IMG/VR virus record: IMGVR_UViG_3300032323_000964
Coordinates: 1 to 20,671 of that record
DNA length: 20,671 nucleotides
DNA from: a virus
Reading direction: 5' to 3' (one strand)
In this document: positions 7,403 through 20,671 of the stretch, piece after piece
How positions within the stretch are numbered: the first letter of the stretch is position 1
How the letters are laid out: every line of letters starts with the position of its first letter
Position numbers and translations under genes: made by a program
Notes under the pieces: model-generated
Told to the model about the DNA's origin: nothing
What the model saw: the letters and a program-made list of their open reading frames with translations, nothing else
Database searches by the model: none

Positions 7403-7536
7403 TTTCCTTGCCCTCTATACTTTTTTGTATAGTTCTTGCTTGTTTTCAACTTACTTGTCTTGCTCTTTGCGTGCACTCCTGTTCTGCTCTTCTTTGGAGC
7501 TTCAACAAAGTTACTAATTTCTTTAATCTTTGCCAT
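7399..7536 (-). CDS. 45-residue basic protein
   Basis: Reads from the ATG at 7536: MAKIKEISNFVEAPKKSRTG, then a Lys/Ser/Thr-rich stretch (HAKSKTSKLKTSKNYTKK) ending YRGQGK. Hydrophilic, highly basic, no membrane segment. I recognise the pattern 'PKK.R.GVHAKSKTSK.K.SKNY.KKYRGQG' as a recurring short protein in Bacteroidota phages, without an assigned function. One-base overlap with the fibre stop upstream (TAATG) and four-base overlap with the membrane protein downstream support it as a gene. A nucleic-acid or virion-DNA association would fit the charge, but that is a guess. Confidence 0.75.
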   Translation of the reverse strand: MAKIKEISNFVEAPKKSRTGVHAKSKTSKLKTSKNYTKKYRGQGK

Positions 7537-9209
7537 TATACAATTTTAATCGTTCCACCATCGTTATATAAGTCACCCGCACTAAGCCCTGTCGGTGATG
7601 TAGGTAGACCCTCGAGTCTCACTCGCCCACTTGTTGAGTGGAAAGCGTAGTGTGTTACACCCACCGTTGCGGTTAATGTTGGGTTATGATAAAAACCTCT
7701 ATAAATTGTTGTTCCACCTGATGTATTTACAACGGTATTATTTTGGATATTATTATAAAATGAAGTACCTGTTGAATTGGTTAAAGTTCCAAGCATTCTA
7801 ATTACACTACCTATATTTTGTTGTCCACTGCTTTCTGCTTGACCTATACTCAATCTCATAAAAGATTGTTCTGTTGTACCTGCAGCTTGAAAACGACCTG
7901 AATTTATTTGAGTGAAAGTAAAAACATCAGTTGTTTGACCACCGCCAAAATTCATTGCAACTGAAGGATTACCATAGATTTCAGCTGCTACTGAAGCAGT
8001 TCCTACAGTGAGTCTGCTTTGCACCCTTGCAGTACCATTCACATCGAGTTTAAAGCCTGAGTCAGTGGTGGTGTTGATGAGTAGGTTGCCTGATGTAGGT
8101 ATACGCATTATTTCAGTACCACCTTGAAACCATCTATGCCCAAAAGAAATGCCATTTTGTTGGGCATAATAATTTATACCACCCCCCGCATTACTAGTGT
8201 TAAAATTTCCAATATTAACATTAACTCCGGCCCCATTTGCTCCATATCCAACACCGGAAGCAAATCCACTTTGTGGTGTAGATTGTGGGTTAGCCCAAAA
8301 AACACCCGTAACTCCTTGAGAAGAAAAAGATGTTCTTGACCATGTACTAGAAATTACATTAGTAAATGTAGAATCAGCTGCCGCATTTGTTAAATTTAAT
8401 GAGGCTACTCCATTTGGAACTAAACCTGTTATTGTTCCTTGCACCCTCGCAGTACCATTGACGTCAAGAGTCGCAGCAGGTGTTGTTGTTCCTATTCCAA
8501 TGCTGCCGTCCCATCCTTGTATAAAAAGCCTTGATGTTAATACATTCCCTGAGTTTTTAGTTCTAAAGTTATACGAGCCTAAACCTGTACTCGCAGCATA
8601 ATTATATAGTGTATCAAAATAAGTTACAGCATCAGGTGAATTATAATAGATTTGCGTTGCGGTGGTAGCTAAAGCAAAATGTTTTAGCAATATACCTTGT
8701 GTTGAATTTACTGAATTTACTTCAAGTTGTGCATTTACCCTCGCAGTACCATTGACGTCAAGCCTAAATCCTGCATCGGTTGTTGTGTTGATTAGAACAT
8801 TACCTGTTGATGATACAATTCTCATTCGCTCTACTGAGCCTGTTCTTTGTAAAAAACGAATAGGCAAATTAGATAAAAAGTCAAAGTTTCCGCTATTTGA
8901 GCTCGCCCTAATTTGGTCTGTATTTCCACCAAAAGAAGCTAAGCCACCTATATATAAAGTTTGATTAGGGTTATCCCATGTAAAGTTGCTTGACTGCTGT
9001 AGGACATTGCCCGTACCTTGAAAAAATACACCTCCTCCTGAGCCATTTATAACAGGTGTACTGCCAACGTTCAGTTTTGAGGCGTTCATAATCTCCTGTC
9101 CTGTTATCTTGCGTGAGCCTGTGCCGCCTACAAGGGACATTTCAAATAGGTCAGTGGCTGCTAAATCTCTGCCTACTGCCGGTAAATCAACTATCTTAAT
9201 TCCTGCCAT
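7536..9209 (-). CDS. Fibre-like virion protein A (paralogue 1 of 3)
   Basis: A 557-residue, Gly/Asn/Thr/Ser-rich, low-lysine protein predicted to be beta-rich. It opens with MAGIKIVDLPAVGRDLAATD and KITGQEIMNAS, shared almost exactly with two other genes here, so this is probably the common attachment domain. The shaft has three copies of a module with the pattern N-LIN-TTTDAGF-LDVNGTARV (DNA at about 8021-8094, 8441-8500 and 8734-8810) separated by unrelated segments. Unlike its paralogues it lacks the GFLPPRM C-terminal domain and ends GLPTSPTGLSAGDLYNDGG. Probably a tail fibre or capsid appendage for host binding; the module pattern is common in Bacteroidota phages, function inferred. Confidence 0.75.
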   Translation of the reverse strand: MAGIKIVDLPAVGRDLAATDLFEMSLVGGTGSRKITGQEIMNASKLNVGSTPVINGSGGGVFFQGTGNVLQQSSNFTWDNPNQTLYIGGLASFGGNTDQIRASSNSGNFDFLSNLPIRFLQRTGSVERMRIVSSTGNVLINTTTDAGFRLDVNGTARVNAQLEVNSVNSTQGILLKHFALATTATQIYYNSPDAVTYFDTLYNYAASTGLGSYNFRTKNSGNVLTSRLFIQGWDGSIGIGTTTPAATLDVNGTARVQGTITGLVPNGVASLNLTNAAADSTFTNVISSTWSRTSFSSQGVTGVFWANPQSTPQSGFASGVGYGANGAGVNVNIGNFNTSNAGGGINYYAQQNGISFGHRWFQGGTEIMRIPTSGNLLINTTTDSGFKLDVNGTARVQSRLTVGTASVAAEIYGNPSVAMNFGGGQTTDVFTFTQINSGRFQAAGTTEQSFMRLSIGQAESSGQQNIGSVIRMLGTLTNSTGTSFYNNIQNNTVVNTSGGTTIYRGFYHNPTLTATVGVTHYAFHSTSGRVRLEGLPTSPTGLSAGDLYNDGGTIKIV

Positions 9210-9212
9210 GTC

Positions 9213-10757
9213 TTATACTATAAATGTCCATCCTGTTGACTTGTAAACCCATAAACCTTCTGTAGCATCAGTACAGTATACAATCAACCCCACAGCCGGG
9301 CTTACAATTGCTGTGCGTTGCGCGTTTGTCATTCTTGGTGGAAGAAAGCCTGTTGTTGTACTATTTAAAGCAAATAATGCAGATGCTACCTCAGAACCAC
9401 CTACCCAAGTATTTCCACTTGAATTTCCGTAATTCCAATTAAATATTCTTATTAATGTACCGTTATCATTTATCCTTGAAAATACGTGTCCTGCACCTGT
9501 TTGATTCGTGTCTAATTGGCCATTTAAAGTAACTTTTCCTGTTACTCTCATTGTTCCATTAACATCAACTTTATAACCTGCGTCTGTGGTGGTATTGATG
9601 AGGAGGTTACCTGTTGCAGGTATGCGCATTCGTTCAGTATTATTTGAAAAGAATGTTAAAAAATAACCACCAAAACTTGCTAATAAACGAACTTCACCTG
9701 TGTTTATATTTGTTATTAATCCACCTCTTGCGGCGCCATCAGTTGCATTCATATTTAATGAAACAACTTGTGTATTGTCGCCTACTTGCATATTTATTGT
9801 AGGGTTTGCCGTAGTAAGTTGCAAATTACCCTTCACCCTCGAAATACCATTGACGTCTAATCTATAACCATCGTCTGTGGTGGTGCCTATTAGGACGTTG
9901 CCTGCGCTTGGATTGAGCAATACATTACTATTTGAAAGAGCACGAATAGCAACATTGCTATTATTATGTACTACGCTAAAAAATGTATTCCCTGCTCCTT
10001 GTGTTGAATAAAAATTTGCACTACCATTAGAAACAAACGTACCCGAACTTCCTAAAAATAAAGTAGGCGTACTTCCTTCTAAATATAAATCTCCAAATCC
10101 GCGCATTCTTAATAAAGAACCACTTGCTCCCGTTACTTGAAATGCCGTTGATGATGAATTATTAGCTAATCCACTCTGCACCCTCGCAGTACCATTGACA
10201 TCTAAACGGAAGCCTGCATCGGTTGTTGTGTTTATTAGGACGTTGCCTGCATTATTAATACGCATCCTCTCTGAAGCAACCGTAAAAGTTACCGCAGTAG
10301 TTCCCCCTCTTAGATTAGCCGTTGAACTTGATAATTCCAAAAAGCTACCTGTTACACCTGCGCCTGATGCCAAATAAATTGCTCCGTTGCTTGTAGCTAA
10401 GTAGCCTGTCTCTGAATACTGACCTTTAAAACGTATAGCATCAAATCCGCTTGTAGCATTACCAACAACGTGTAAAGGAGCTAATGGTGTGCTTGTACCA
10501 AAACCTGCCCTTTCATTCGTGTTGTCCCAAAATAAAGACAAACTCTGCTGCAACACATTCCCCGTACCTTGGAATAAAAGGCGACCTACCGTTCCACTAA
10601 CGATAGGAGTTGCGCCAACATTTAACTTTGAGGCGTTCATTATCTCTTGCCCTGTAATCTTACGACTAGCAGTGCCTCCGATTGACATCTCAAATAGGTC
10701 TGTTGACGCTAAATCCCTACCCAATGCGGGTAGGTCGACAATTTTTATTCCGGCCAT
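9213..10757 (-). CDS. Fibre-like virion protein B (paralogue 2 of 3)
   Basis: A 514-residue protein with the same first 45 or so residues as fibres A and C (MAGIKIVDLPALGRDLASTD, KITGQEIMNASKLNVG). Repeat modules (VNGTARVQ/VNGISRVK/VNGTMRVT preceded by TTTDAG/DDG) lie at about 10,174-10,255, 9,831-9,905 and 9,541-9,615. The C-terminal domain, about the last 50 residues, is TTGFLPPRMTNAQRTAIVSP then GLIVYCTDATEGLWVYKSTGW; this 'GFLPPRM...AI..P..GL..Y.TD' ending is a known recurring end domain of Bacteroidota fibre and surface proteins. It begins 3 bases after fibre gene A's upstream boundary and its start is 3 bases from the 47-residue gene. Likely a host-range protein. Confidence 0.75.
   Translation of the reverse strand: MAGIKIVDLPALGRDLASTDLFEMSIGGTASRKITGQEIMNASKLNVGATPIVSGTVGRLLFQGTGNVLQQSLSLFWDNTNERAGFGTSTPLAPLHVVGNATSGFDAIRFKGQYSETGYLATSNGAIYLASGAGVTGSFLELSSSTANLRGGTTAVTFTVASERMRINNAGNVLINTTTDAGFRLDVNGTARVQSGLANNSSSTAFQVTGASGSLLRMRGFGDLYLEGSTPTLFLGSSGTFVSNGSANFYSTQGAGNTFFSVVHNNSNVAIRALSNSNVLLNPSAGNVLIGTTTDDGYRLDVNGISRVKGNLQLTTANPTINMQVGDNTQVVSLNMNATDGAARGGLITNINTGEVRLLASFGGYFLTFFSNNTERMRIPATGNLLINTTTDAGYKVDVNGTMRVTGKVTLNGQLDTNQTGAGHVFSRINDNGTLIRIFNWNYGNSSGNTWVGGSEVASALFALNSTTTGFLPPRMTNAQRTAIVSPAVGLIVYCTDATEGLWVYKSTGWTFIV
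10176..10229. repeat. 54-bp exact repeat, copy 1 (fibre B)
   Basis: This stretch inside fibre gene B is identical to 12,368-12,421 inside fibre gene C. It encodes the TTDAGFRLDVNGTARVQ part of the fibre module. Six further diverged copies of the same module lie in the three fibre genes at about 8021, 8441, 8734, 9541, 9831 and 11,566. Confidence 0.9.
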
Positions 10758-10759
10758 AG

Positions 10760-10903
10760 TTATTCTTCTGTTACCTCAGGCTGCTGTTCTTTTGCAATCT
10801 CATTCAAGAACTGAACGAGTGGCATTGCATACTTCATAGGCATCTCCTGAATGAAAGCTTCTAATTTTGCTAATTGCTCTTGATTTAAAACGATTTGATT
10901 CAT
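10760..10903 (-). CDS. 47-residue helical protein between fibre genes
   Basis: Starts at the ATG at 10,903: MNQIVLNQEQLAKLEAFIQE, then MPMKYAMPLVQFLNEIAKEQ and an acidic end PEVTEE. Predicted amphipathic helices, no membrane segment. It stops 2 bases before the ATG of fibre B and starts 11 bases after the 90-residue gene. Small helical proteins placed next to fibre genes can be fibre-assembly chaperones or connectors; this is inference from place only. Confidence 0.7.
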   Translation of the reverse strand: MNQIVLNQEQLAKLEAFIQEMPMKYAMPLVQFLNEIAKEQQPEVTEE

Positions 10904-10914
10904 GATTATATAGA

Positions 10915-11187
10915 TTAAATGATTACTACTCCAAGGTATTCAGCAACATAGTTGTCTACTACGCTGTTGTCAGTACCCCACGTTGCAAACTGCTCCTCAG
11001 TCAAGGTATAGTTGCCCTGTGCCAATTGCTTGCCATCCTCAGTAAGCAACTGCCAATAAGTTGTGCATGTTACTGCATCAGTTGGGAAGTTAAGAACTAA
11101 GACAGACAATAGTGTTGCTGTCCCTTCGTTTAATGGGTATACTACCGGTTCGATAGCTACTCCTCCTTGTGGTGTTGTGTTTTCCAT
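10915..11187 (-). CDS. Small protein between fibre genes, function unknown
   Basis: A 90-residue, acidic protein (MENTTPQGGVAIEPVVYPLN) with beta-type strands (TLLSVLVLNFPTDAVTCTTY) and a polar C-terminus ending YVAEYLGVVII. No signal peptide or membrane segment. Compact size and setting between fibres B and C suggest a virion accessory or an assembly factor. Sixteen bases separate it from the fibre C stop and a rich A/T run lies there. Confidence 0.68.
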   Translation of the reverse strand: MENTTPQGGVAIEPVVYPLNEGTATLLSVLVLNFPTDAVTCTTYWQLLTEDGKQLAQGNYTLTEEQFATWGTDNSVVDNYVAEYLGVVII

Positions 11188-11203
11188 TTTTTATTTTTTA
11201 TGA

Positions 11204-12982
11204 TTAACCAATATATGTCCATCCGGACGATTTATAAATATACTTTCCTTCAGTCGCGTCAGTCTGATAGATTTCAAGACCGATAGCCGGACTAGCAATA
11301 GCGTTACGCTGTGTCTGTGTCATTCGTGGGGGAAGGAAGCCTTGGGTAGTAGATGCAACGTCAAGTATTGCCGAAGCATTTGGGCTAATAGTGTTTATCC
11401 CTATTCTATTTTCACTTGCTTTCAAGTAAAACAAAACACCCGCTTGCGAATGAAGCCTAAACGTTGGCGTTGAACTATTATTCGCGTTGAAAGCTAAAAC
11501 CGCTGCTGAATTGAACATACGAAACATCTCAATTCCATCGCTTCGATTTATTATAAATTCATTTTGAATCCTCGCAGTCCCGTTAACGTCAAGTCTAAAG
11601 CCTGCGTCTGTGGTGGTGTTGATGCCTACGTTTCCTGTTGATTGAAAGAACTTCATTGTTGTTGAAGTCAATGAGCCAACACCTGACGCAACACCTATGC
11701 TGAAGTTGTGTGAACTTACTGTAGTTATAGCGGTTTCACTTGAAGAAGGAAAATTCATCCTAATTGTACCATTATTTCCATCACTAAAACTAATACCATC
11801 ATTTACCGAGGCCGTGTTTAGGCTTATTTTACCACCTGTCGCATTTCTTAAATTTATGAATGGACCTGTAGGTGCTTGATTGTCACCTAGTACACTTGAT
11901 GTTCCAATTGTTATTGCAGCATTTGAATTGATGTAAAAACCTGTCGTTGTTACATTTGAAAATCCAAAGGTAGTAGTACCATTTGAATTGTCTGTCATCC
12001 TAATTAGACTGTTAACCCCGGATAAAGTAGGATTAATTAAAACCCTTGCTTGACTCCTAATTCCCCAATTCGTTACCCCCGTAAATGCACCATTAGTAAA
12101 AGTTGGGTTAATATCCAAACCTACAAGTGTGTTGTTATTGGCAGATGCTACTAACGAAGGTCCAATAGCCAAACCATTTAAAATGCCACTTAAATTCTCA
12201 GGATTTATTGATAAACTCAATCCTGTTGCAGTTGTATATTGAAAAGATGCTTTGGAGTTATTAGCGGAATTAAACATTTGAAATGCATTACCGCTAAATA
12301 ATTGCATTTGTCCATAACCTTGATAATTGCTGAAATTTTGAATACCTGCCGAGGTAGTTAAATTCCCCTGCACCCTCGCAGTACCATTGACATCTAAACG
12401 GAAGCCTGCATCGGTTGTTGTACCGATGAGTACATTACGTTGACTACTAATAGACATTGAGTAGTTAATAGCAGTTCCGTTATCTTGTGTAAATAATATC
12501 GGAGCATAACTACCACTTCGAAAGGACTTAAAATATAAAGAATTAGTTAATGCAACAGTTGAGCTATTACCCCATCCAAATACTCCACCAACAACACCAT
12601 TGTTATCTAATAAATTAAATTCAGTCCAACCACTTGCGTTCGTGTTTCTTAACGACATTAATTGAAATCCAATTGTTCCATTACCAACAACATCCAAAGG
12701 ACTTGCAGGCAAACTCGTGTTAATACCTACTCTCCCATTTACTTGGTCAAAAAACAAATTAGCTGACTGCTGCAATACATTTGTTGAGCCTTGGAAGAAT
12801 ATGCGGCCGGATGTGCCGTTGATAACAGGGGTGTTGTTAACTGAAAGCTTGGATGCGTTCATTATCTCTTGGCCCGTAATCTTGCGACTACCTGTGCCAC
12901 CTGCTAATGACATCTCGAACAAGTCGGTTGCCGCAAGGTCTCTCCCTACCGCAGGTAGGTCAACTATCTTAATTCCCGCCAT
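11204..12982 (-). CDS. Fibre-like virion protein C (paralogue 3 of 3)
   Basis: The longest of the three, 592 residues. It shares the N-terminal domain (MAGIKIVDLPAVGRDLAATD, KITGQEIMNASKLSVN), then FFQGSTNVLQQS as in A and B, the repeat module NVLIGTTTDAGFRLDVNGTARVQ-type at 12,366-12,430 and NVGINTTTDAGFRLDVNGTA-type at 11,566-11,640, and the GFLPPRMTQTQRNAIASP C-terminal domain (GLEIYQTDATEGKYIYKSSG). The middle is rich in Asn, Ser, Thr and Gly and differs from A and B. It lies 5 bases downstream of the 47-residue gene at 12,988. Same role as A and B is likely; three simultaneous copies suggest hetero-oligomeric or alternative fibres. Confidence 0.75.
   Translation of the reverse strand: MAGIKIVDLPAVGRDLAATDLFEMSLAGGTGSRKITGQEIMNASKLSVNNTPVINGTSGRIFFQGSTNVLQQSANLFFDQVNGRVGINTSLPASPLDVVGNGTIGFQLMSLRNTNASGWTEFNLLDNNGVVGGVFGWGNSSTVALTNSLYFKSFRSGSYAPILFTQDNGTAINYSMSISSQRNVLIGTTTDAGFRLDVNGTARVQGNLTTSAGIQNFSNYQGYGQMQLFSGNAFQMFNSANNSKASFQYTTATGLSLSINPENLSGILNGLAIGPSLVASANNNTLVGLDINPTFTNGAFTGVTNWGIRSQARVLINPTLSGVNSLIRMTDNSNGTTTFGFSNVTTTGFYINSNAAITIGTSSVLGDNQAPTGPFINLRNATGGKISLNTASVNDGISFSDGNNGTIRMNFPSSSETAITTVSSHNFSIGVASGVGSLTSTTMKFFQSTGNVGINTTTDAGFRLDVNGTARIQNEFIINRSDGIEMFRMFNSAAVLAFNANNSSTPTFRLHSQAGVLFYLKASENRIGINTISPNASAILDVASTTQGFLPPRMTQTQRNAIASPAIGLEIYQTDATEGKYIYKSSGWTYIG
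12368..12421. repeat. 54-bp exact repeat, copy 2 (fibre C)
   Basis: Identical to 10,176-10,229 over 54 bases; flanking sequence differs on both sides. Points to recent conversion or recombination between fibre genes B and C at this module. Confidence 0.9.
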
Positions 12983-13703: not shown

Positions 13704-15326
13704 TTATAATTGCTCGTATTCGTAGAATAGTTGGAATTTCGGAGTGTCAATAGCTCCCGGAATAGTCGTAGTGAAGTAGTCAGGATTGATTAGCTCAACT
13801 ACAGGGAATATTAACTTAGTGTACCATGCATCATAAGGATTAGCAATCTGAGTGGCTACCTTAGTAATACCAATCCAATTTGTGATGTTAGGATAGGCAT
13901 CTAATGCTAATGTTGCCTCAATGTAGTACGTACCGGGGTCACCTACGTTTGCAGAACAGTTTGAACCCGGGAAAGACTCAGTGAATGTACCCGGAAGAAC
14001 ACCTGAAACTATGTTGCCATTTGTAAGAGTTGAAAGAGCCACAGGAGAGAATCCTGACTGAGGAATTGGGAACGTAGCCCCATTTGTACCCGGATAAATA
14101 AAGTTATATCCTGAGCTTGTGTTCCAAGCAGCATTGTTATAAGCTACAAATGATTGGAAGACAGGGCTTGCACCTTGAGTGTAAAGAGCAACGCCTGCAT
14201 TCGCGCCAATTTTTACATTGACCTGCTGCTGCATATTAGTGTAAATCTTAAACTTCGTAAATCTTCTCCAAGTTGTACCTAAAGAAGGTGATATGGAAAT
14301 GAAGTCAGGATTTTGAGCAAGGCCGCCGTATACATAAGTAGTTTGAGTGCTTGACAAAACGTTAACGGGAGTTAACGCCCAACCGCCACCTAAACCTGTA
14401 GTGATTGATTTACCGTAAATACCTACACCTGTGTCAGGCGTGTTATTTGCAAGGCAGAATCCTTTTGTCTGATATATGTCAGCGTTCCTTTTCTGAACAG
14501 TGTACGTAACGCCACCTACAGGGTTTACAGCCATGTTGTTTAGCAACGTAACCTGTCCTGCTGATGGAGCTGTAAAGTATACATAAGGGTTAGTTGTAGT
14601 ATCAGAGTAAACAGCGATACCTGTATCATTAAAGATATCAATTCCATGCGCATTTACAAAGTCTACAACAGTAGTGTTGAAGTTAGTATTAAATACCATT
14701 GGGTAAGTTACTGCGTTCAATACAATGTTAACTGTTCCTGATGGAGGATTCACGCCAAGGATTGGCTGTAATCTCACTTGACCCGATGTACTTGCTATTG
14801 AAGATGTACTGAATGTTCCAACAAAAGTTAAGTCTTCATTTGGAAAATCAATGGCACCTGATGTAACCTGTGCAGTTGCAGGAGCAGTAATTGTCCAAGC
14901 ACCCGGCGCAGGGTTTTCATAACAGAAGAAAGTATATGCCTGCCCATTTGATGGGACACTAAATGAACCATTGGTAATGCCGTTAATGCTACCACCCGGT
15001 AAGCTTGGGAATACTACGATGTCAATACCTGATGTATTTACAATTGTAACTTGACGTCCTTGAATTGGCGGATTCGGCAAGTGACAAGCATAGTCATTGA
15101 CAGTTGGCACAGCACTAATGTGAACAAGGCCATATGGCAAATAAGCAGTGCTGTTGATGTCAGTGCCTTGAGTTTGAAATTCAGCAGAGTTAGTTACCGT
15201 TTGAGTCTGAATATCCTCAATTGTATAAGCCTCACTCTCTGAGTTAATTAAACTAGAGCGTCTCTCTACCGTTGGGTAGTTGGCTGCTAAACCAATAAAT
15301 TGAGTACCTGATGGAATTGATGACAT
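13704..15326 (-). CDS. Large putative virion structural protein
   Basis: A 540-residue, low-charge, Thr/Ser/Asn/Gly/Val-rich protein, probably beta-sheet throughout. It begins MSSIPSGTQFIGLAANYPTV and ERRSSLINSESEAYTIEDI, an N-terminal pattern seen in Bacteroidota phage structural proteins, continues with PIQGRQVTIVNTSG, a NPAPGAWTIT turn, and strand-rich C-terminal half ending FQLFYEYEQL. It has its own promoter (TATATTTG at 15,340-15,347) and own terminator, so it is expressed as a single unit, as expected for a high-copy virion part such as a tail or head-surface protein. No lectin or catalytic motif recognised; not the major capsid protein by any motif I can see. Confidence 0.7.
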   Translation of the reverse strand: MSSIPSGTQFIGLAANYPTVERRSSLINSESEAYTIEDIQTQTVTNSAEFQTQGTDINSTAYLPYGLVHISAVPTVNDYACHLPNPPIQGRQVTIVNTSGIDIVVFPSLPGGSINGITNGSFSVPSNGQAYTFFCYENPAPGAWTITAPATAQVTSGAIDFPNEDLTFVGTFSTSSIASTSGQVRLQPILGVNPPSGTVNIVLNAVTYPMVFNTNFNTTVVDFVNAHGIDIFNDTGIAVYSDTTTNPYVYFTAPSAGQVTLLNNMAVNPVGGVTYTVQKRNADIYQTKGFCLANNTPDTGVGIYGKSITTGLGGGWALTPVNVLSSTQTTYVYGGLAQNPDFISISPSLGTTWRRFTKFKIYTNMQQQVNVKIGANAGVALYTQGASPVFQSFVAYNNAAWNTSSGYNFIYPGTNGATFPIPQSGFSPVALSTLTNGNIVSGVLPGTFTESFPGSNCSANVGDPGTYYIEATLALDAYPNITNWIGITKVATQIANPYDAWYTKLIFPVVELINPDYFTTTIPGAIDTPKFQLFYEYEQL

Positions 15327-15339
15327 AATTTATTTTTTA

Positions 15340-15347
15340 CAAATATA
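15340..15347 (-). promoter_or_regulatory. TAnnTTTG promoter -7 element for the 540-residue gene
   Basis: Minus-strand TATATTTG, 14 bases before the ATG at 15,326, inside the short gap to the 58-residue gene. Exact consensus; no good TTG at -33. Confidence 0.65.
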
Positions 15348-15351
15348 CGTG

Positions 15352-15528
15352 TTATTTTTGATAGGGAAATGCCTTGTTCAGTGCTTGACGGCGCTTCTCA
15401 CATGGCGTACACTCAGCTGTACCCTTCTTCTTCTGAGCAATTGTGTCAGCAATACGCTTGATACCTGTTGCAGTGGTCACCTTGTGGATTGTATCACCAA
15501 GGCCACGGCTAGTACTTGTAAGCTTCAT
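15352..15528 (-). CDS. 58-residue basic protein with CxxC motif
   Basis: Starts at the ATG at 15,528: MKLTSTSRGLGDTIHKVTTA, then TGIKRIADTIAQKKKGTAEC and CTPCEKRRQALNKAFPYQ. The pattern 'GLGDTI..VT.ATGIK ... C..C..RR..LN..FPY' recurs in Bacteroidota phages. The single CxxC pair (Cys 40 and 43) could form half a zinc site, made whole by dimerisation. Last gene of the basic-protein unit; its stop is only 5 bases from the promoter element of the next gene. Confidence 0.75.
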   Translation of the reverse strand: MKLTSTSRGLGDTIHKVTTATGIKRIADTIAQKKKGTAECTPCEKRRQALNKAFPYQK

Positions 15529-15695
15529 TACTTTTTCTTTTTGTCCATTGTCTTAACAGAGGCATATGCCTTACCTGTTGACTTTTTGTTCATGGCTTTA
15601 GCCTCATCACGGCGGTCTTTAAGCGTTTGCTTCTTCTTACCGTTGCGAGCTGCCATTGACTCGTCCATCTTTGCGTTAAATCCTTGCTTTTTCAT
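15528..15695 (-). CDS. 55-residue very basic protein
   Basis: Starts at the ATG at 15,695: MKKQGFNAKMDESMAARNGK, then a run of Lys/Arg (KKKQTLKDRRDEAKAMNKKS) and end KTMDKKKK. About one third of residues are Lys or Arg. Joined to the next gene by TAATG. Nucleic-acid binding in the virion or during packaging would fit; no named family recognised. Confidence 0.75.
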   Translation of the reverse strand: MKKQGFNAKMDESMAARNGKKKQTLKDRRDEAKAMNKKSTGKAYASVKTMDKKKK

Positions 15696-16595: not shown

Positions 16596-17042
16596 ATGGA
16601 TGATTACCTAAAGTATTGGCGAGTGATACGCCAATATGTGAAGATAAAGTATGAGCTGAACCAAGCTGATCTTGATATGATTCTCTTCCTCTACTCAGAG
16701 GTTTACTTCAACAAAGACAAGTTCGCAGAGTTTACACGCCTAGTCGGTTGGGACTCAAAGCGATTTAAGAGATTGCAGTCGCAAGGGTTTATTGAGTCGT
16801 TCCGCAAGTATGACCCACATACAAAAAGGAGAGCCTTGTACAAACTCTCCTATAAAGCCAAACGAATGGTCAATAAAATCTATAAATACCTAAGTGGTGA
16901 AGAACTCATCTCAGAGACATACAAACACAACCCACTGTTCAAAAAGAATAAGCGCTACCGTGATGCTGTCATGAGAGGAGCTGTCCTACAGCTCAATGAC
17001 TCTATTCGCCAACTACAACAACAACGTCACGCTCCTGAATGA
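16596..17042 (+). CDS. Plus-strand protein, probable winged-helix-like DNA-binding regulator
   Basis: The only complete gene on the plus strand. A 148-residue, basic, largely helical protein: MDDYLKYWRVIRQYVKIKYE, NQADLDMILFLYSEVYFNK, then FAEFTRLVGWDSKRFKRLQS, GFIESFRKYDPHTKRRALYK and LSYKAKRMVNKIYKYLSG. The order helix - helix-turn-helix (residues about 45-75, with the W52 and KRFKRL recognition-like helix) - basic beta-hairpin 'wing' (IESFRKYDPHTKRRALYKLS) - helix is that of MarR-like winged-helix proteins. It may control the neighbouring late units. Its 3' end overlaps the groES stop end by 41 bases, tail to tail. Function is inferred from fold pattern and setting. Confidence 0.7.
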   Translation: MDDYLKYWRVIRQYVKIKYELNQADLDMILFLYSEVYFNKDKFAEFTRLVGWDSKRFKRLQSQGFIESFRKYDPHTKRRALYKLSYKAKRMVNKIYKYLSGEELISETYKHNPLFKKNKRYRDAVMRGAVLQLNDSIRQLQQQRHAPE

Positions 17043-19368: not shown

Positions 19369-19591
19369 TAGGATCTGATTTAGGCTATGTCAAAATTAGC
19401 ATTCCCTATATATATATATATTTTATTACCTCCTTTTATTATTTTTTTTTAATCTAAGTTAGATTTAAAATCGACATTTTCGACAACTAATTAATAATCA
19501 ATAAGTTAAATAACATAAAAAAGACATTTCTATGTCAATTATCGTACATTCAATTCTAGTTAGATACTAATATTAAAAATTAGTATAAACG
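19369..19591. other. AT-rich intergenic stretch with small palindromes
   Basis: No gene could be supported here. The stretch is strongly AT-rich, with a TATATA run near 19,410, a dyad AATCTA-AGT-TAGATT at 19,451-19,465, a GACAT/ATGTC dyad at 19,523-19,536 and a dyad ATACTAAT/ATTAGTAT at 19,564-19,586. It separates two single-gene units and is best read as regulatory or untranslated. Confidence 0.55.
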
Positions 19592-19635: not shown

Positions 19636-19833
19636 TTATCGACATGAACTGCCCATCATGTACTCGTTCATTTGCTCGCGCATCTCTGCTCTTACATCGG
19701 CCTCAACCATCATCGAAATCTTCTCCTCACGCTTGCGCATCTTCTTGGCTGCAACAGCCGCTTGAATGCCCGTGACACCATTGCTAATCGGTCTATTAAC
19801 CATGCTAGCCAACATCTCTTTTTTCATCATCAT
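19636..19833 (-). CDS. Small basic helical protein, single-gene unit
   Basis: Read from the first of three adjacent ATG codons at 19,833 the product is about 65 residues: MMMKKEMLASMVNRPISNGV, then TGIQAAVAAKKMRKREEKIS and MMVEADVRAEMREQMNEYMM. Methionine- and charge-rich, predicted helical. A longer reading starts at 19,857, but that ATG overlaps the -7 promoter element (19,855-19,862) and would lie before the transcription start, so it is rejected. Function unknown. Own promoter and terminator. Confidence 0.68.
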   Translation of the reverse strand: MMMKKEMLASMVNRPISNGVTGIQAAVAAKKMRKREEKISMMVEADVRAEMREQMNEYMMGSSCR

Positions 19834-19854: not shown

Positions 19855-19862
19855 CAAATATA
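19855..19862 (-). promoter_or_regulatory. TAnnTTTG promoter -7 element of the rightmost minus-strand gene
   Basis: Minus-strand TATATTTG. Places transcription start near 19,848, 15 or so bases before the chosen ATG at 19,833. Confidence 0.65.
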
Positions 19863-19987
19863 GTGATTAGATACATAGAGGTTTTGGGTGATATATAGGT
19901 TCTGAGCGAACGTGCCCGATGTGGAAACGCCTTTATTTTTAGGGGGTGGGGGGTGCATTTCGTTAAGCGCAGTCAAGATTTTTGACC
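19863..19987. other. Non-coding lead-in to the dyad array
   Basis: No gene supported. Contains a G-rich run at 19,941-19,955 (GGGGGTGGGGGG) and a small GTCAA/TTGAC dyad at 19,973-19,987. A plus-strand reading frame starting at 19,912 runs into the repeat tract and is rejected. Confidence 0.5.
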
Positions 19988-20290
19988 TTTTGGTACAAAG
20001 TACAATAAGTAGTTATGGTACAAAGTACAATAAGTACCTGTCACGCGCCTACGCGCACGCACGCACATACGCGCGCGCATACATACGCGCCTACGCGCAC
20101 GCACAAATGAATTACTTATGGTACAAAGTACAATAAGTATTTAGTTATGGTAAAAAGTACAATAAGTCTTTGCTTAGTTATTGTAAAAAGTACAATAAGT
20201 GAGCTCAATTAGTTATTGTATAAAGTACAATAAGGTTAGTGTCATTTGGACACTAAGTAATCTCCTTACTTATGGTAAAAAGTACAATAA
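19988..20290. repeat. Seven copies of a 21-bp near-palindrome (family I iterons)
   Basis: Core: left arm TTATGGTAC, centre AAA, right arm GTACAATAA. Copies at 19,988-20,008; 20,013-20,033; 20,116-20,136; 20,145-20,165; 20,178-20,198; 20,213-20,233; 20,270-20,290. The right arm is unchanged in all seven; the left arm varies (TTTTGGTAC, TTATGGTAA, TTATTGTAA, TTATTGTAT). All copies have the same orientation and most are followed by GT. Likely binding sites for a dimeric protein, such as a replication initiator, partition protein or repressor. Confidence 0.92.
20042..20104. repeat. Alternating purine-pyrimidine CG/CA tract with 20-bp direct repeat
   Basis: A run of ACGCGC/CACGCA/TACGCG alternation, prone to left-handed (Z) DNA, between family I copies 2 and 3. 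The same 20 bases occur at 20,043-20,062 and 20,085-20,104 (ACGCGCCTACGCGCACGCAC). Far more GC-rich than its surroundings. Confidence 0.85.
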
Positions 20291-20365
20291 GTAGTTAGTG
20301 TCATAACTACACTAAGTAGTAAGTGTCATTTGGACACTAAGTAGTAAGTGTCATTTGGACACTAA
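20236..20365. repeat. Four copies of a second 21-bp palindrome (family II iterons)
   Basis: Core: arms TTAGTGTC and GACACTAA with centre ATTTG. Copies at 20,236-20,256; 20,295-20,315 (centre changed, ATAACT); 20,320-20,340; 20,345-20,365. The last two start TAAGTGTC. The last three are spaced exactly 25 bp centre to centre. Same length as family I and interleaved with it (one family I copy lies between the first and second). Confidence 0.92.
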
Positions 20366-20506
20366 GTGTTTTCTCCCCCCTTTATCCCCATCTACTCAAA
20401 AAAAATTTATCCCCTTTGCCCTTCTGTAACCCTTATAAACATTGGGATATAGAGAAAATCTATAGAGCCTATAGATAAAATCGATGAAAATATTTTCAAA
20501 AAGCCA
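20366..20506. other. AT-rich, origin-like stretch with DnaA-box-like sites and palindromes
   Basis: No gene seen. Contains TTATCCCCA at 20,382-20,390 and TTATCCCCT at 20,407-20,415 (one and two mismatches to the DnaA box TTATNCACA), a dyad TCTATAG-AGC-CTATAGA at 20,459-20,475, and an exact 14-bp palindrome TGAAAATATTTTCA at 20,485-20,498. Together with the iterons this resembles a replication origin, but no experiment or skew is available here. Confidence 0.5.
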
Positions 20507-20536
20507 TTGCCGAACAAAAAGAAAGCCCTAGTATTG
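20507..20536 (+). promoter_or_regulatory. Candidate plus-strand promoter before the right-edge ORF
   Basis: TTG at 20,507-20,509, 19-base spacer, then TAGTATTG at 20,529-20,536 (one mismatch to TAnnTTTG), 4 bases before the ATG at 20,541. If real, the transcript would be leaderless or the true start lies further right. Confidence 0.4.
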
Positions 20537-20540
20537 CACC

Positions 20541-20671
20541 ATGAAACAACGACAAACACACAACGCAACAACGCAACTACGCACCACGCTACACACACAT
20601 GAGGGTGCTATTATAAGCGCCACACGTGAGGCACGTGTTAAGCATGGACAAAAGGACACAACGAACGGCGC
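20541..20671 (+). CDS. Start of a plus-strand ORF (partial, runs off window)
   Basis: Open from ATG at 20,541 for 43 codons to the window edge: MKQRQTHNATTQLRTTLHTH, then EGAIISATREARVKHGQKDT. Basic, with Thr/His-rich start that partly reflects an ACA/CAC-rich DNA run, so the first part may be untranslated; HEGAIISATREARVKHG looks more protein-like. It would be the first gene of a rightward (perhaps early/replication) operon. It contains a 7-bp dyad ACACGTG/CACGTGT at 20,622-20,638. Function unknown. Confidence 0.35.
   Translation, partial: MKQRQTHNATTQLRTTLHTHEGAIISATREARVKHGQKDTTNG

Follow-up and report, generated by a model that had tools for sequence, protein, structure and literature searches.

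A phage array of 21-bp dyads with the features of operators for two host NrtR/AraR-family regulators

Introduction

LexA and CRP are examples of host regulators that phages use at their promoters, and operator titration and datA are cases of DNA carrying sites for cellular regulators. A natural phage array that serves two metabolic repressors is not known to us.

The sites published for AraR are semipalindromes of 21 bp, frequently paired 3 bp apart, and the crystallised operator of Bacteroides AraR, which has 21-bp semipalindromic tandem sites, contains the core GTGTTACTTTTACAC (PMC4666351). Here we analyse an array of 21-bp dyads at 19988-20365 of IMG/VR virus record IMGVR_UViG_3300032323_000964, the 20,671 bp of which are called the window below. 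The array shares with BtAraR of Bacteroides the 21-bp semipalindrome, the NTGT-N7-ACAN core, a tandem placement about 24 bp apart and the link to Bacteroidota, and its centre spacing of 23-25 bp is similar to that of AraR site pairs (PMC4666351). However, BtAraR has one or two sites at host operons (PMC4666351), whereas the array has 11 sites of two specificities and lies on a phage genome without the regulator gene. The lambda iterons, bound by O protein, resemble the array as a set of imperfect inverted repeats, ~19-21 bp each, within the control region of a phage; they number four (six in Stx phages) and lie within the initiator gene, next to an AT-rich tract (PMC7466680). Unlike them, the array varies in number and spacing, has no initiator match and is missing in close relatives. 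In Vibrio, two site classes, the 12-mers and 39-mers of RctB, share one control region; RctB recognises both site types as a single protein (PMC5395669), whereas the array would serve two paralogous proteins, each with its own site type.

Results

The family I dyads lie on the plus strand at 19988-20008 (TTTTGGTACAAAGTACAATAA), 20013-20033, 20116-20136, 20145-20165, 20178-20198 (TTATTGTAAAAAGTACAATAA), 20213-20233 and 20270-20290, and the family II dyads on the same strand at 20236-20256 (TTAGTGTCATTTGGACACTAA), 20295-20315 (TTAGTGTCATAACTACACTAA), 20320-20340 and 20345-20365. Scores with the host-derived matrices described below were 17.2 bits for the first family I copy, 23.3 and 22.9 bits (T1 matrix) for the fifth and sixth, and 24.5, 22.5, 24.3 and 24.3 bits (T2 matrix) for the four family II copies; family I copies 2, 3, 4 and 7 rest on motif position and the host-derived matrix. 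An earlier note on this DNA had counted seven family I and four family II dyads and four exact 25-bp centre spacings between neighbours, and both counts hold; its other spacings matched or nearly so. Its consensus was too narrow. The family I core GTAC-AAA-GTAC is present in 3/7 copies, the remainder having GTAAAAAGTAC or GTATAAAGTAC, and the family II core GTGTC-ATTTG-GACAC does not apply to copy 2. The common outer TTA/TAA ends are lacking in family I copy 1, which starts with TTT, and in family II copies 3 and 4, which start with TAA. A single form, TTA[TG][TG]GT[AC]-N5-[TG]AC[AC][AC]TAA, covers both families nearly throughout; family I can be written as TTATTGTA-N5-TACAATAA with position 5 variable, and family II as TTAGTGTC-N5-GACACTAA. 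The dyads have the 21-bp semipalindrome with a TGT-N7-ACA core that serves as the NrtR/AraR operator criterion; where positions 5-6 of a family I copy are GG, GT-N7-AC is retained and the first core base differs.

The 684 bp from 19858 to 20541 hold 12 dyads of 8-bp arms around a 5-bp centre; 1000 dinucleotide shuffles gave 0.43 on average and never more than 3. The degenerate dyad motif matched 11 times in the array region and never in 300 shuffles. Centre spacings range from 22 to 49 bp plus gaps, and the helical phase is weak. One gap holds a GC-rich, Z-DNA-prone tract of alternating purines and pyrimidines (20050-20105, 41 + 14 bp), the longest such run of the record, and its 41-bp part (20050-20090) separates family I copies 2 and 3. 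The longest purine-pyrimidine run falls in the same region in G001, G006, G007, G008, G012, G013 and the array-less MW202828. Among 38 different dyads, 3/40 arm mismatches were compatible with G-U on either strand. Mismatches are thus almost never G-U, which points to a dimer-binding site in DNA and not to a hairpin in RNA. An array of RNA hairpins or terminators was rejected because arm changes are not kept as G-U or compensatory pairs, and Rfam gave no family at gathering score for the array, with chance-level matches only.

Minus-strand late genes had been thought to end at the array. They start to its left instead, so the array lies between divergent transcription units, with a small gene and the groEL genes leftward and early genes rightward. 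The first leftward gene (19636-19833, minus strand) encodes a small conserved protein (MMMKKEMLASMVNRPISNGVTGIQ...), and its promoter has a Bacteroidota-type -7 element, TATATTTG (19855-19862, minus strand); TAnnTTTG is found at the leftward -7 position also in the relatives read. The rightward early promoter (20507-20536, plus strand) consists of TTG (20507-20509), a 19-bp spacer and TAGTATTG (20529-20536), a layout kept in L014, L027 and L031, and the first early gene (MKQRQTHNATTQ..., 20541-20671, plus strand) runs off the contig end. These elements are outside the array, which is therefore upstream of both promoters; the distance from its ends is 126 bp to the leftward -7 element and 141 bp to the early -33 element. 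A conserved G-tract block, GGAAACG..GGGGGTGGGGGGTG..GATTTTT (end also given as GATTTTTTTGGC), occupies 19920-19987 and is common to array-bearing and array-less relatives. The array, or the position just before it, is where the contigs of L016, L012, L028, L040, L041, L043, L054 and the window stop; so many ends at one place suggest that the array breaks assemblies.

The phage group encodes terminase, GroEL/GroES, a MarR-like protein, a primase-helicase and standalone DnaA domain-IV proteins, and its kin are Flavobacterium Elemovirus, Cellulophaga phi13:2-type and Maribacter Panino phages. The proteins that are mainly DnaA domain IV are conserved across the group, one or two per phage (66521-66829 and 8849-9370 in G001; 13927-14232 in G003). 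At 7536-12982 the window has three paralogs in tandem, large proteins that begin with MAGIKIVDLPA and are probably tail or fibre components.

Pattern scans of IMG/VR found arrays recurring in two clades of GroEL-encoding, Elemovirus-related phages: clade A (the window, L014, L027/G001, L031/G005 and L016/L037/G006) and clade B (L012, L019, L022, L026/G003, L028, L029/G002 and L199/G044). Short versions occur in more distant phages without GroEL (L007, L030). The array is therefore conserved in relatives and not absent from all of them. Single dyads before many genes, the pattern that the earlier note set against an origin array, were not seen in the phages, the strong sites being confined to a single cluster in each of the 60-67-kb GroEL relatives; they were seen in bacterial genomes, as promoter operators. 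Across phages an array has 2-11 sites (about 3-7 in clade B), and spacing and orientation also vary. The array is inverted relative to the genes between the clades, the 23-bp spacing of family I to family II recurs in both, and every lineage with an array has it at the early/late control region. A GroEL tree does not unite clades A and B among the array-less relatives and requires two changes, although a single origin of the array is not strictly excluded. Close relatives sharing the primase-helicase at 59-80% identity lack the array. A similar control region is retained in array-less relatives. A nucleotide-similarity search of phage and plasmid collections gave no match to the array, and a literature search for the half-site strings gave nothing relevant. 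In the array-less L053, several GC-rich perfect inverted repeats of the CCCTACACC..GGTGTAGGG type lie between consecutive early genes (14116-15644).

Exact family I matches in bacterial genomes were mostly in Bacteroidota, several of them 12-33 bp upstream of glycoside hydrolase-like genes. The description of the Bacteroides AraR sites (PMC4666351) led us to test NrtR-family genes for dyads. A family I site was found just upstream of an NrtR-family gene in G032 and G038, and family II sites between pfkA and a second NrtR paralog in G035 and G039. With phage-derived matrices, thresholded on mononucleotide shuffles, 36 of the 71 Bacteroidota NrtR genes with upstream sequence, from largely metagenome-assembled genomes, had a site ≤200 bp upstream (0.7 expected). 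Site density was 2.83/kb in NrtR promoters and 0.10/kb in the rest of the same loci (27x). Among the 21 sites outside NrtR promoters, 17 were at +688 to +871, at or just beyond the end of the ~700-bp gene, and probably belong to the next promoter. The initial control with the phage-derived matrices flagged 15/89 non-NrtR ORFs. About half of the host NrtR genes have no site, chiefly those outside three types that we label T1, T2 and T3 by N-terminal motif (VSVDNVVFGFD, NPHVSVDC and FGLSVDC, respectively) and not by a tree.

The site families follow these types. T1 genes with a site have a family I site in 8/9 cases, T2 genes with a site have a family II site in 11/12 (one also with a family I site), and the third paralog, T3, has a variant site, TTAAAGTA-N5-TACTATAA. 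In the other direction, matrices built from host sites alone recovered 11/11 window dyads at 17-24.5 bits, with one other match in the record at 14.4, and assigned family I to T1 or T3 and family II to T2. At the level of sequence, motif, paralog and family thus match in both matrix directions, and no such protein was found in the phages: NrtR_WHD was not detected in 28 phage records at E≤1. The nearest solved structure to T1 and T2 is AraR (E 1e-51 and 5e-41 in the PDB comparison), and both have the Pfam domains NrtR_WHD and AraR_C; the NrtR/AraR family combines a Nudix-like domain with a winged helix. The earlier note had suggested either a single protein family of two specificities or a pair of related proteins. 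The pairing of T1 with family I and T2 with family II agrees with this, and the proteins most likely belong to the host.

G032 and G038 each have T1 and T2. Host T1 operators sit 31-52 bp upstream of the ATG, and two host genomes have 2 family I sites each at ≤1 mismatch, compared with 7 in the phage genome. T1-type sites lie upstream of GH16 and GH2/GH5-like genes and adjoin a GluP-like transporter in G031 and G043, where zwf also adjoins an NrtR gene. T2-type sites neighbour pfkA-gapA, pckA, the NADP-glutamate dehydrogenase gene gdhA, an alpha-amylase gene and a sugar-kinase operon in which a BadF-type kinase is beside beta-phosphoglucomutase. By analogy with AraR (PMC4666351), T1 and T2 probably respond to a sugar or nucleotide sugar. 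Site counts compared with a reversed-pattern control made no host regulon evident in most bacterial genomes, and the bacterial sites are interpretable because of their link to NrtR genes and nothing else. Many matches in G024 fall in coding sequence for hydrophobic LIVLFTI-like segments. Termite-gut Bacteroidales (L216-L229; Tannerella G022 and others) have many intergenic arrays of a TATTGTAC-N3-GTACAATA palindrome that is near phage family I.

Discussion

Our data are best explained if the array is an operator cluster for two host NrtR/AraR-family regulators, not for a phage protein, and probably titrates them; we give this reading a probability of roughly 0.6. Judged from sequence, the dyads are very probably host NrtR-type operators, T1 and T2 having been taken from other Bacteroidota that may not be the host of this phage. 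Family I would then be the operators of T1 and family II those of T2, bound by the host proteins with presumably one dimer per dyad. As phage DNA enters and replicates, it would lure T1 and T2 away from their operators on the chromosome, and the resulting release of sugar uptake and central carbon metabolism would feed phage growth. The main effect is probably titration, because the array is 126-141 bp from the promoter elements and strong family I sites are in excess. Titration is also preferred because the sites are many, represent both specificities, are flexible in spacing and orientation, lie off the core promoters and outnumber the strong family I sites in the two host genomes for which these were counted. 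Against it, the 3-7 or so sites of clade B are little for a sponge, and the location in a control region in all array lineages is equally predicted by local regulation. Taken as the main role of the array, titration falls a little short of even odds.

Host T1 and T2 might instead act on the array directly, controlling the divergent early and leftward promoters according to the sugar state of the host. This main alternative is rather unlikely. In its favour, divergent promoters flank the array in the relatives that were examined, clades A and B have the 23-bp I/II spacing in common, and the regulators are probably sugar- or nucleotide-sugar-responsive by the AraR analogy (PMC4666351). The array is 126/141 bp from the promoter elements, whereas the host T1 operators are 31-52 bp before the ATG. 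It is also inverted relative to the genes between clades, its spacing varies without clear helical phasing, and a similar control region persists in array-less relatives. Titration and local sugar-gated control are compatible with each other.

An origin in which the dyads are iterons for a phage initiator, either the DnaA domain-IV protein or the primase-helicase, is very unlikely. The GC-skew minimum is at the divergent region in complete or near-complete genomes, as an origin would predict, but the skew is confounded by gene direction. The phages do encode standalone DnaA_C proteins, and lambda iterons are likewise ~19-bp inverted repeats (PMC7466680). However, the array is absent in close relatives with the same replication genes, and its dyads vary in number and spacing and are not the regular, helically phased repeats of an origin. 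The most easily melted DNA tends to lie ~500-900 bp away, next to further conserved GACAT repeats, which occur in some array-less relatives too; the distance of the least stable DNA near the array ranges from 140 to 880 bp and exceeds 480 bp in most genomes. The array itself is probably not the origin, and a better candidate is the stretch at ~19385-19560 of the window, which is flanked by the groEL genes and the small gene. This is the least stable DNA of the record, G001 and G002, with conserved GACAT/ATGTC repeats and an alternating TATA run, also found in some array-less relatives; in relatives the element is AT-rich, with a DnaA-box-like TTATCGACA. DnaA boxes were not enriched near the array. 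The counterpart of 19385-19560 in the relative L053 has TAGTAGTAG repeats.

The dyads could also be operators of the phage's own MarR-like protein (16596-17042), which is conserved, has a MarR-like predicted fold and is the most obvious phage-encoded dimeric regulator. We consider this highly improbable, even more so than an origin. The protein is equally conserved in array-less relatives, there is no dyad at its own gene, and the match to host NrtR promoters would be left unexplained. Its recognition helix shows no clear tracking of the array, the residue being K in clade A, Q/D in clade B and D/E/N/Q in array-less relatives; a co-variation of helix and array that clade A seemed to show did not hold in clade B.

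A partition centromere, or a structural repeat without a specific host protein, is hardly credible despite the single cluster of tandem dyads, as the Pfam scan of 72 G001 proteins had no ParA/ParB-type partner (nor any ParA, integrase or repressor family). An origin or a centromere had been among the options of the earlier note; the variable number, spacing and orientation, the absence from relatives with the same replication genes and the lack of ParA among the 72 scanned G001 proteins speak against either as first choice.

Through the host-operator reading, a phage array without a name becomes connected to named regulators of the host, and each dyad family acquires a meaning that experiments can probe. 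For T1 and T2 in Flavobacteriales-type genomes, the reading further suggests operators and candidate regulons. Tentatively, and with less confidence than for titration itself, at least two phage clades may carry a natural DNA decoy, in which the gathered, interleaved operators of two repressors derepress host sugar uptake, glycolysis and gluconeogenesis in infected cells without a phage protein. If titration is true, the phages would reprogram host metabolism via DNA sites instead of auxiliary genes.
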